Assembly: GCA_003245625.1 (NCBI GenBank)
Contig: QKCT01000043.1
Span: 1-32,279 of the forward strand
Length of the DNA stretch: 32,279 nucleotides
Direction: 5' to 3'
Origin: Bacillota bacterium
GTDB lineage: Bacteria; Bacillota_I; Bacilli_A; Izemoplasmatales; Hujiaoplasmataceae
Numbering within the stretch: position 1 is the stretch's first letter; each line of letters opens with the position of its first letter. The translations under genes were made by a program, and so were the position numbers. The notes under the pieces were generated by a model that searched no databases, had not been told where the DNA came from, and was given only the letters and a program-made list of their open reading frames with translations. Positions 28,992 to 32,279 of the stretch are shown piece by piece.

Positions 28992-30422
28992 ATGGATATT
29001 AGAAAAAAACCGGATCTTACGCTGGCAAGAAAGCGTTCAAAGACACCGACAATGACAATTGAATATGATCAAAACAATGAAATACAAAACCTTGGACTAG
29101 GGAAAAAATATCTCATTCAAACCCACGGATGTCAAGCAAATGAGGCAGATACAGAAATTTTAAGAGCGATGATTGAAGAGCAGAAATTTACTTTGACAGA
29201 TAAAGTGGAAGAAGCAGACCTAATCCTAATCAATACATGTGCTGTACGTGAAACGGCTGAAAATAAGGTTTTCGGGGAACTAGGCAGATTAAAGAGTTTA
29301 AAAAAAGTTAATCCCGATATGATTTTGGTTGTCGCTGGTTGTATGTCCCAAGAGGAAGCTACAATTGAACGGATATTAACGAAATACAAACATGTTGATA
29401 TCGTCTTGGGAACGCATAATATTCCGGAGTTTATTCATTATCTTCACTATGTAATGACAGAACGCAAACAAATGATTGAAGTGATCTCCCAAGAAGGCTC
29501 TATTACAGAACATTTACCACATGCCAGAGACAGTCGTTTTAAAGCTTGGGTAAATATCATGTATGGATGTGATGAATTTTGTACCTATTGTATCGTACCA
29601 TATACCAGAGGAAAAGAACGGAGCAGAAGAAAGGAATATATCTTAAATGAAGTCAAAGCTTTAATTGAGAAAGGATATCAAGAGATTACTTTACTTGGCC
29701 AAAATGTAAATTCGTATGGATTAGATTTTGAAGAAGGCAATTATGATTTTTCGGATTTATTGTCTGACTTAGCTCAAACAGGTATCTCTCGTATTCGTTT
29801 TACCACCTCTCATCCAAAGGATTTTTCTGATTCTTTGATTGATGTTATTGCAAAATATGAAAACGTAATGCCTCATATTCATTTACCTGTTCAATCCGGT
29901 TCGGATACAGTACTTAAGAAAATGAATCGAAAATATACCAAAGAACAGTACTTAGACTTGGTTCATCGTATTTACGAAAAGATCCCAAATGCATCCATTA
30001 CTACTGATATTATTGTTGGTTTTCCAACGGAAACCGAACATGATTTTTTAGAAACAATGGACCTAGTAACGAAAGCTCGTTTTGAAGGAGCATATACGTT
30101 TGTGTACTCTCCGAGAAAAGGAACTCCAGCTGCCATGTATGAAACCACAGTTTCTAAACAAGAAGCAAAAGACCGTCTTCATCGTTTGAATGAGCTTGTA
30201 AACGAGGGGTATTTAAAAGGAAATATGCGTTTTGAGGGACAGAATGTAAAGGTACTAATCGAAGGAAAATCCAAAACCAAAGAAGATGTCTATTCCGGAT
30301 ATACTGAAAATAATAAATTAGTAAATGTAAAATGTAGTGACCAAGAGATTGGTAATATCGTTTTGGTTCATATTACAAAAGCAAAGACTTGGTCGTTGGA
30401 TGGAGAACTTGTCCGTTCTTAA
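28992..30422 (+). CDS. miaB: tRNA-2-methylthio-N6-dimethylallyladenosine synthase
   Basis: A 476-residue radical-SAM methylthiotransferase that adds the 2-methylthio group to i6A37 of tRNAs reading U-starting codons. The N-terminal domain holds the auxiliary cluster cysteines C47 (THGCQAN), C83 (NTCAVRE) and C117 (AGCMSQ). The radical-SAM triad is C193, C197 and C200 in YGCDEFCTYC, followed by VPYTRGKERSR. A TRAM domain closes the protein (about 410-475). The first 35 residues are a polar extension as in Bacillus MiaB (YmcB). The start is 3 bases after ymdB with AAGAGG overlapping its end. No clear terminator follows. Confidence 0.97.
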   Translation: MDIRKKPDLTLARKRSKTPTMTIEYDQNNEIQNLGLGKKYLIQTHGCQANEADTEILRAMIEEQKFTLTDKVEEADLILINTCAVRETAENKVFGELGRLKSLKKVNPDMILVVAGCMSQEEATIERILTKYKHVDIVLGTHNIPEFIHYLHYVMTERKQMIEVISQEGSITEHLPHARDSRFKAWVNIMYGCDEFCTYCIVPYTRGKERSRRKEYILNEVKALIEKGYQEITLLGQNVNSYGLDFEEGNYDFSDLLSDLAQTGISRIRFTTSHPKDFSDSLIDVIAKYENVMPHIHLPVQSGSDTVLKKMNRKYTKEQYLDLVHRIYEKIPNASITTDIIVGFPTETEHDFLETMDLVTKARFEGAYTFVYSPRKGTPAAMYETTVSKQEAKDRLHRLNELVNEGYLKGNMRFEGQNVKVLIEGKSKTKEDVYSGYTENNKLVNVKCSDQEIGNIVLVHITKAKTWSLDGELVRS

Positions 30423-30482
30423 ACAAGCAAAACAGAAAAGAGAAAAAAAACAAGGAAATCGCCAAATTTATGCGTAACTCAC

Positions 30483-30511
30483 TTGAATTTCTCAAAAATA
30501 TATTGTACTAT
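30483..30511 (+). promoter_or_regulatory. Promoter of the tail-anchored protein/mutS unit
   Basis: TTGAAT (30483-30488), a 17-bp spacer and TACTAT (30506-30511). It lies about 30 bases before the start at 30543. The bases 30423-30482 after miaB are A-rich and show nothing else. Confidence 0.6.
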
Positions 30512-30542
30512 AGTAGTATATATTCTAAAAAAGGGTGAGAAA

Positions 30543-31880
30543 ATGGGTAAATTAAAAACAAGAGAAGAGTATTTTGCTTTCTCGAAACGTTTGGTTGTCA
30601 TTCCAACCGAGGATATCCAAAAACTATTCTTGAAGTTCAAAGTGAAATTGCCATTGTTTGTGCATGCCTTTTTATTGCGGGAAACAATCCGTTCAAAGGT
30701 CTTTGAAGAAAAACTCTACAACACTTACACCGATGAATTGAAATATCGTCTTCGTGGATATAATGTTTTTTCCATATATCCTCTTGAGTCGTTGATCGAA
30801 AAATACAACTTAGACTTTGAATTATCCAGATACAAAGAATTATTGTTTGACTTCATTTTCGTCAACATGGACGAAATGTCGTTGAAGAATAGTTTTATCA
30901 ATGACTTAGAGCAGTTGCAACATAATTATGCTGTCGACTTAGAAGTGATGAAATATTCTAACTTTTACGAACTACTAAAACCTGTTTTTTATGAAGCACA
31001 AGGATATTTGGATGGAGTAAAACTCAGTGAGTGGACAGACGAAATGTTGAATTCCTATACTTTGGGTGATCTAAAAGCATTAGGAAAGAAATATGATGTC
31101 AATGTTCCAAGACGTATTAATAAAGCGAAACTGATAGAGATTCTTGCGGCGAAATTCAAGTTGACTGAAGATGAAATTGAATTATTAGGGAAGAAGAGCG
31201 TTTTGGATTTGGAAATCTATGCCAAAGAAAAAGGGTTCAAAATATCAATTGATTTAAAGAAACAAGATATGATTGAGTACATGAAGTTCGATTTAGGAAT
31301 GTATCACAAACCAATGGAATCCGATTCTTATAGTTATGATATCCCTGTCGATAGTCGTGAGGATGAAGTGACAAAAGACATTGAGATTGAAGAAGAAGTT
31401 GTTGTAGAGGAAATTCAACCTGAACCACAACCAGTCTTTGTCCCTGTGGAAGAGGAAGTAGAAGAAGAACCAGTCGAACTTCCAGAACCGGAACCAATTG
31501 TTGAAGTGGAGCCGGAACCTGAGCCTGAACCAGTGATTGAACCGGAACCTATTCCTGAATCAGAACCTGTGGAAGAAGTTATCCCTGAATCAGAGCCATC
31601 CCCACAGCCACAACCAATCATCTCAGAACCAGTTCGACCAGTAGCACCAACTGTTGTTGAAGACAGTTTGTTGTCTGGAGAAGAGAAAGAACTGTTGGAT
31701 GAAAAAATCAATCAAATCATCAAGAAATTCTATAAAAAACGCCGTCGTCGCAGAATAACATGGACCATCATTATTGTTTTACTTGCGCTGGTTCTTGGGT
31801 TTGTGGCGTACTCTTACTACTACTATACAATCGGTAATCCTGGTAATTTACCATTTGGTTTACCTGTATTTTGGAATTAA
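30543..31880 (+). CDS. Unrecognised tail-anchored protein with two SAP/Rho-N-like motifs and a Pro-Glu stretch
   Basis: A 445-residue protein I cannot assign to a named family. Residues 1-165 are helical and unfamiliar. Two short helix-extended-helix motifs follow: LGDLKALGKKYDVNV...KAKLIEIL (about 174-200) and VLDLEIYAKEKGFKI...KQDMIEYM (about 220-248). Both resemble SAP or Rho N-terminal motifs that bind nucleic acid. Residues about 275-368 are acidic, rich in Pro and Glu, and probably extended and disordered. Then comes a basic patch (KKRRRRR) and one transmembrane helix (about 406-428) with a short tail. This suggests tail anchoring with the bulk in the cytoplasm. The start follows AGGGTGA; an in-frame ATG at 30483 lies within the promoter. 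mutS follows after 13 bases, probably in the same transcript. Confidence 0.8.
   Translation: MGKLKTREEYFAFSKRLVVIPTEDIQKLFLKFKVKLPLFVHAFLLRETIRSKVFEEKLYNTYTDELKYRLRGYNVFSIYPLESLIEKYNLDFELSRYKELLFDFIFVNMDEMSLKNSFINDLEQLQHNYAVDLEVMKYSNFYELLKPVFYEAQGYLDGVKLSEWTDEMLNSYTLGDLKALGKKYDVNVPRRINKAKLIEILAAKFKLTEDEIELLGKKSVLDLEIYAKEKGFKISIDLKKQDMIEYMKFDLGMYHKPMESDSYSYDIPVDSREDEVTKDIEIEEEVVVEEIQPEPQPVFVPVEEEVEEEPVELPEPEPIVEVEPEPEPEPVIEPEPIPESEPVEEVIPESEPSPQPQPIISEPVRPVAPTVVEDSLLSGEEKELLDEKINQIIKKFYKKRRRRRITWTIIIVLLALVLGFVAYSYYYYTIGNPGNLPFGLPVFWN
31413..31640 (+). repeat. Degenerate Pro-Glu codon repeat inside the tail-anchored protein gene
   Basis: Runs of GAACC/GAGCC-type units encode PEPEP tracts (for example between about 31480 and 31560). 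The copies vary in third positions, which points to selection for the protein sequence and not to recent repeat slippage. Confidence 0.7.
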
Positions 31881-31893
31881 TTTAGGAGCTTAG

Positions 31894-32279
31894 ATGAAAG
31901 AGATAGATCCAACCATTTATACACCGATGATGCAACAATATCTAGAGATCAAAAAAGACTATAGCGATTATATAGTCTTTTTTCGACTGGGAGATTTCTA
32001 TGAAATGTTCTTCCAAGATGCTTTGGTTGCTTCGAAAGAGTTGGAGATTGTTTTAACAGGCAGAGATGCCGGAGCACAAGAACGTGTTCCAATGTGCGGA
32101 ATTCCTTATCACGCAGCAAGCATCTATTTGGATAAATTGGTTGAAAAGGGATATAAAGTTGCAATCGTTGAACAAGTGGAAGATCCAAAAGAAGCAAAAG
32201 GCATTGTAAAACGAGAAGTCATCAAGCTTGTTACACCTGGTACGATTATCGAAGATGGCAGTCTAAGCAAAAAAGCTAA
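31894..32279 (+). CDS. mutS: DNA mismatch repair protein MutS, N-terminal part
   Basis: Partial gene cut by the window edge: 128 complete codons plus two bases of a protein usually near 850 residues. MutS finds mispaired bases and starts mismatch repair. The visible part is the mismatch-recognition domain. [10 protein letters not shown] contains the Phe-x-Glu that inserts at the mismatch (F35, E37), followed by [35 protein letters not shown] and [13 protein letters not shown], all family signatures. AGGAG (31884-31888) lies 5 bases before the ATG. The final bases read GCT-AA and are an incomplete codon, not a stop. A terminator-like hairpin lies within codons about 20-30. Confidence 0.98.
31951..31983 (+). 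other. Terminator-like hairpin inside the mutS coding sequence
   Basis: AAAAAAGACTATA (31951-31963) and TATAGTCTTTTTT (31971-31983) are perfect 13-base complements with a 7-base loop, and the 3' arm ends in six T. This has the shape of an intrinsic terminator 57 bases after the mutS start codon. It encodes [11 protein letters not shown], a normal MutS segment, so it may be fortuitous or an attenuator. Confidence 0.6.

Follow-up and report, generated by a model that had tools for sequence, protein, structure and literature searches.

A conserved tail-anchored protein with tandem HeH modules, encoded upstream of mutS in Izemoplasmatales and tentatively read as a membrane tether for nucleic acid

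The 32,279-nucleotide stretch of DNA analysed here (the window; contig QKCT01000043.1 of the Bacillota assembly GCA_003245625.1) carries a gene whose product is a member of a conserved, unnamed family found mostly in wall-less bacteria. Computational methods gave us the gene and its family, a fold model for a helical head, a duplication of small modules within it, a membrane anchor, and a pattern of constraint that separates these parts from the linker between them. We infer that the protein binds nucleic acid, DNA more probably than RNA, with its head in the cytoplasm, and that it has a tethering role. The reading we prefer, at a probability of roughly 45%, is that of a tail-anchored protein which tethers nucleic acid, most probably chromosomal DNA, to the membrane. 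The parts of the gene and its flanking genes are listed in Table 1.

Table 1. Features of the tandem-HeH gene and its immediate neighbours, in window coordinates.
Feature	Coordinates	Strand	Description and basis
Whole gene	30543..31880	+	445 aa, tail-anchored tandem-HeH protein; ORF, orthologues, constraint
Shine-Dalgarno-like site, AAAGGGTGAG	30530..30539	+	Precedes ATG start; read from sequence
Diverged HeH module 1	30597..30701	+	Residues 19-53 (IPTEDIQKLFLKFKVKLPLFVHAFLLRETI); hhalign and model helices 22-31/38-53
Diverged HeH module 2	30765..30866	+	Residues 75-108 (LESLIEKYNLDFELSRYKELLFDFI); hhalign and model helices 78-87/94-107
Helical connector	30873..31046	+	Residues 111-168, near-invariant LDG at 156-158; unmatched by HeH modules
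HeH/Rho_N module 3	31056..31157	+	Residues 172-205, conserved PRRINK; Rho_N in relatives, phrog_3281, basic residues
HeH/Rho_N module 4	31194..31292	+	Residues 218-250, conserved ISxDLKK; second Rho_N stretch in relatives, likeness to module 3
Acidic Pro/Glu linker	31326..31670	+	Residues 262-376, fast-evolving; alignment, composition, pN
Amphipathic juxtamembrane helix with polybasic end	31674..31754	+	Residues 378-404, conserved (LDEKINQIIKKFYKKRRRRR); alignment, hydrophobic moment
Single predicted transmembrane helix	31755..31811	+	Residues ~405-423; hydropathy
Short conserved tail, predicted external	31812..31877	+	Residues 424-445, ends LPFGLPVFWN; alignment
mutS	31894..32279	+	13 nt downstream of the gene, cut by contig end; continues on contig C22
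miaB	28992..30422	+	Upstream neighbour; Pfam or homology

The reading frame lies where a preliminary description, made from the sequence alone, had placed it, between miaB and mutS in a cluster with recA and rny. Identities of the neighbours, obtained by Pfam or homology, confirm this arrangement and give the order recA (from 24944), rny (RNase Y, 26117), ymdB (28227), miaB, the gene and mutS, with a NUDIX gene also present. No terminator-like site was seen between the gene and mutS, the number of promoter-like sites did not exceed that in shuffled sequence, and the linker DNA had no tandem repeats by TRF. The window's mutS is split between contigs C63 and C22 of genome G000, whose ends share a 320-base overlap at 97.2% identity; strain variation thus probably broke the contig within mutS.

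The ORF is real and evolves under purifying selection. In comparison with the nearest relative, pN was 0.096 for the head, 0.093 for the juxtamembrane helix, membrane helix and tail taken together, and 0.274 for the linker, with pS at 0.73-0.80 and so near saturation. We therefore regard the head and anchor as the conserved parts and the linker as a spacer. The layout is common to 25 aligned relatives, which argues that it did not arise by chance.

We modelled the head (residues 1-269) with AlphaFold2 from a 24-sequence alignment and obtained an almost wholly helical structure with a mean pLDDT of 94.5 and a pTM of 0.89. Two SAP/Rho-N-like motifs had been proposed for this protein, and an HeH unit was found in the model at both, with helices at residues 174-183 and 194-205 in module 3 and at 220-229 and 240-250 in module 4. 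Both units recurred when residues 172-250 were modelled by themselves (pLDDT 90.4), and each has the HeH topology of a helix, an extended loop and a second helix in about 35 residues, with a basic loop or second helix. Profile searches support the assignment among relatives. With E values of 1 or below allowed, the Pfam Rho_N profile matched 24 of the 29 domain sequences (best E 5e-10), and it exceeded its gathering score in L074, L073, L126 and L132, each with two stretches at positions matching the modules; the window protein itself matched at E 0.07-0.3, under the cut-off. The window protein matched the module of phrog_3281 (endonuclease VII) at E 2.9e-4, and L077 did so at E 1.2e-6. Modules 3 and 4 belong to the Rho_N/SAP/HeH superfamily of modules, membership being claimed at the level of the superfamily only, and the window protein is neither a LEM protein, nor Rho, nor Noc.

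The N-terminal domain, described at first as helical and unknown, is indeed helical, and profile comparison makes it look like a divergent duplicate of the module 3 and 4 pair. Using hhalign, module 3 matched module 4 at E 4.8e-7 (0 of 100 column shuffles reached the score), module 1 matched module 3 at E 2.6e-5 and module 2 matched module 4 at E 3.4e-4, again with 0 of 100 shuffles in each case. Residues 23-111 aligned collinearly with residues 175-253 with both modules in register (E 7.1e-5, 0 of 100 column shuffles), and the controls gave E 0.55 for a reversed profile and E 0.18 for the connector (residues 110-168). On the basis of this self-comparison, we read the head as two HeH pairs plus a connector.

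Residues 69, 183, 191, 194 and 240 (R69, K183, R191, K194 and K240) are basic in 93% or more of 30 diverse members, the last four spanning 93-100% and K240 being basic in 97%. The basic residues of module 3 are K183, R190, R191 and K194. Across the broad family, no more than about 12 basic positions are conserved at 70% or above. The net charge of the head is close to zero and that of modules 3 and 4 together only +3, so nucleic-acid binding would be weak or require many copies. Structural databases gave little: a PDB sequence search with the domain and tandem profiles returned nothing better than calmodulin and LC3, with E values of 0.5 and above, and Foldseek, run with the head on PDB structures and viral models, found no match at E < 1, nor any for the tandem by itself in the PDB, modules of about 35 residues scoring weakly in a larger chain.

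The linker has the acidic Pro/Glu composition of the preliminary description (33% D+E, 21% P, net charge -37 over the 121 residues set by the bounds of the composition script), and is longer than the 90 or so residues given there, at about 115. It is acidic and Pro-rich in families f1 and f3 (families are labelled f1-f22 and genera by g numbers, f1 being the family of the window genome). In the sister family f2 it measures only 14-23 residues and so is no defining feature of the protein; in more distant members it is longer or occupied by other domains. In L119, the linker carries Listeria-Bacteroides repeats at residues about 320-440, which are unexpected for a cytoplasmic segment and put the topology, or our reading of the L119 linker, in question.

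A polybasic patch and a C-terminal membrane helix had also been described, and both were recovered. The run KKFYKKRRRRR occupies residues 394-404, at the end of a juxtamembrane helix with a hydrophobic moment of 0.46 and seven invariant residues (L385, D386, E387, K388, I389, I392 and I393). The transmembrane helix scores 2.54 on the Kyte-Doolittle scale and ends 22 residues before the C-terminus, with basic residues on its N side, so that the positive-inside rule predicts a cytoplasmic N-terminus. With this single C-terminal helix, the protein is predicted to be tail-anchored. Nearly all members have one C-terminal transmembrane helix with a basic N-side flank, the members without it being L120, L121, L125 and L129. 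L121 and L125 lack the helix yet have a basic C-terminal stretch and possibly contact the membrane peripherally. Weak Pfam matches to ETRAMP, US9, FixQ and similar families all fell on the membrane helix and were taken as chance.

The protein was found in all five genomes of the genus and 31 of 34 genomes of the family by protein search, and in 76 of 90 genomes of the order (Izemoplasmatales-like) by profile search. A head-only profile matched 112 of 395 genomes sampled across class Bacilli, although some ten of them are no more than short hits at E close to 1e-3 and may come from the module alone. Outside the class, a broader profile gave no match in 392 genomes of the phylum sample. There was no full-length match over the cut-off in Pfam, NCBIfam, PHROGs or PADLOC, and with the PDB searches this bears out the early impression that no named family matches the protein as a whole. 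Our literature search found no paper describing the tandem-HeH protein family. A defence or phage protein was considered and rejected, as there was no PADLOC match and the PHROG match is confined to the small module. Most of the genomes were assembled from metagenomes, so a gene missing from one of them may be a gap, and the absence patterns discussed below rest on 4-7 genomes each. A second, diverged paralogue of about 400-490 residues, with the same head and membrane helix, occurs elsewhere in the genome (L083, L084, L088, L085 and L086); its neighbour is a subtilase (L083) or an MscS-type channel (L085). A partial divergent member (L137:4294-6539) overlaps a T2SSE-type (ComGA/PilT-like) ATPase gene.

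Conservation next to mutS, which the preliminary description had proposed checking, was borne out. In 52 of the 68 members with downstream sequence, drawn from several bacterial families, mutS begins 2-44 nt past the stop codon (median 19), and the two genes therefore probably form one operon. They are nevertheless separable in both directions. All seven f3 genomes (genus g29, G083-G089) keep the gene with only a MutS2-like match and no MutS1, and four g19 genomes (G054-G057) keep MutS1 and lack the gene, which is also missing from some other genomes. This two-way absence rules out MutS as an obligate partner. The gene is away from mutS in its f5, f7 and f18 members, and the divergent f5 members L136 and L138 lie upstream of a methyltransferase gene, a short ORF, ruvA and ruvB. 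The same four g19 genomes are reduced (0.7-1.0 Mb), and in them ymcA adjoins mutS.

The order rny-ymdB-miaB-(ymcA)-gene-mutS is found in most lineages, and most genera of the order have a YlbF-family gene, ymcA by its position, between miaB and the tandem-HeH gene. In the window, the corresponding 120-base gap (30423-30542) is without this gene. No YlbF-family match was found anywhere in genera g1, g2 and g10, though they retain the tandem-HeH gene, and this absence rules out the YlbF/YmcA proteins of the RNase Y complex as obligate partners. The rny-ymdB-miaB-mutS order is common to Bacilli. Given this general order and the absence of YlbF/YmcA from the window's genus, the gene cluster does not support the role in an RNA degradosome that had been suggested from it. 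Among other candidate systems, Noc was not found over the cut-off in the order's genomes, which mostly have one ParB-like match each; the f3 genomes, which keep the tandem-HeH gene, gave no ParB/Noc-like match. None of the order's 90 genomes had Rho over the cut-off; matches at E 1e-10 were read as F1-ATPase subunits from their lengths and low scores, and a Rho-linked function was rejected.

In the tether we propose, the cytoplasmic head would consist of two pairs of HeH modules of the SAP/LEM/Rho_N class. The second pair (residues 172-250) would be the one to contact nucleic acid, as it retains the basic loops PRRINK and LKK typical of nucleic-acid-binding members; the diverged first pair probably serves to stabilise the head or to bind a partner. 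The Pro/Glu linker would act as a disordered cable, strongly acidic and variable in length; repelled by nucleic acid, it would space the head from an anchor made of the amphipathic helix, the polybasic patch and the transmembrane helix. Each molecule would make several weak contacts through its HeH modules, and these, gathered along the membrane, could then hold the nucleoid loosely against it, much as LEM/HeH proteins keep chromatin at the inner nuclear membrane. In favour of the tether we count the HeH/Rho_N identity and modelled fold of the modules, the duplication of the pair, the conserved basic residues, the constrained anchor with its basic flank, the precedent of Rv3852 described below, the DNA-repair genes that neighbour it in two contexts (mutS, and ruvA-ruvB by the divergent f5 members) and its retention in seven of seven f3 genomes without a ParB/Noc-like or MutS1 gene. 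Because of these repair neighbours, and because the RNase Y partners are dispensable, DNA is weakly favoured over RNA. Against the tether we count the neutral head, the Rho_N match below cut-off in the window protein, the helix-less members, the genomes without the gene, the lack of a solved structure matching the fold, and the fact that HeH modules can also bind proteins.

This last point, with the neutral head, makes a protein-protein scaffold at the membrane (for the envelope, division or protein sorting), in which the HeH modules bind protein only, a serious if somewhat unlikely rival. LEM-type HeH modules of animals bind the protein BAF, and the small number of conserved basic positions across the broad family also fits a scaffold; however, the most strictly kept basic residues concentrate in the loops where contact with nucleic acid would be expected, and genes of DNA repair are repeatedly found next to the gene. 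A tether of RNA, or of RNA-decay machinery alongside RNase Y, we consider unlikely. RNase Y is membrane-bound, Rho_N modules occur in the RNA-binding protein Rho, and the rny-to-mutS setting is that of most lineages, but the same setting is general in Bacilli, the gene stays in g1, g2 and g10 where YlbF/YmcA is missing, the divergent f5 members sit by ruvAB, and the g19 genomes, which have YlbF-family genes and mutS in place, are without it.

The close and widespread spacing to mutS would suit a membrane recruiter or accessory factor for MutS-dependent mismatch repair, a role made very unlikely by the f3 genomes without MutS1, the g19 genomes with MutS1 and no gene, and the f5, f7 and f18 members away from mutS. 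It is more improbable still that the HeH assignment is wrong and an unrelated helical domain resembles SAP/Rho_N by chance. The sub-threshold Rho_N score of the window protein and the Foldseek searches, even with the tandem alone, point that way; against them stand the Rho_N matches above threshold at the expected positions in four relatives, the likeness of module 3 to module 4, and the two HeH units in both models, and units of this size are too small for good Foldseek scores in a larger chain.

The nearest parallel in layout for the proposed nucleic-acid tether is with the inner-nuclear-membrane LEM/HeH proteins (MAN1, Src1/Heh1, emerin and LAP2), which likewise join an HeH-type module to a membrane helix; they do tether chromatin, whereas for the window protein tethering is a proposal. 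LEM/HeH proteins have a long linker between module and membrane, as the window protein does. In fungi the HeH module makes direct contact with DNA; of the two LEM-type modules in LAP2, one is DNA-binding. These proteins are eukaryotic with one or two modules, in contrast to the four that we read here, and we claim homology for the class of module only. The unicellular forms also possess a second membrane helix and, at the C-terminus, an MSC domain, whereas the window protein has one helix, a 22-residue tail and no Pfam match to MSC. Among bacteria, Rv3852 of Mycobacterium tuberculosis is a DNA-binding nucleoid protein fixed to the membrane by a C-terminal helix, and so resembles the window protein in setting a nucleic-acid-binding part (predicted in our case) on such a helix. 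It differs in having KAAK/PAAK histone-like repeats and in being restricted to slow-growing mycobacteria; we saw no homology between the two and know of no HeH modules in Rv3852.

The Rho_N domain (Pfam PF07498), found at the N-terminus of Rho and in L20 fusions, is of the same module class as modules 3 and 4, and family searches found neither the RecA-type Rho ATPase nor an OB fold in the window protein. In the phage endonuclease VII-like phrog_3281, the C-terminal 40 residues match modules 3 and 4; only this small module is in common, and the window protein has no nuclease domain. Noc, the nucleoid occlusion factor of Bacillus subtilis, links DNA to the membrane through a ParB-type fold and an amphipathic helix, and no ParB/HTH domain was matched by Pfam in the window protein.

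Cells of the Izemoplasmatales and of several related orders have no wall or a thin one, and the cultured Xianfuyuplasma coldseepsis zrk13 is a wall-less cell. To our knowledge, little is understood of how the nucleoid is held and segregated in these orders. With a conserved, uncharacterised protein laid out like a chromatin tether, this question becomes testable, and in cultured strains too, as X. coldseepsis zrk13 and strain zrk2 (CP076020.1) both carry the gene. It is a doubtful but conceivable extension that the protein is a lineage-specific bacterial counterpart of the LEM/HeH tethers, in which four HeH modules and an adjustable acidic cable pin the chromosome, and that in f3, where no ParB/Noc-like gene was found, it is a main remaining link between chromosome and membrane. 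If the tether reading is true, bacteria would use HeH modules at the membrane, and this would bear on the origin of the LEM/HeH proteins of the nuclear envelope without implying descent.
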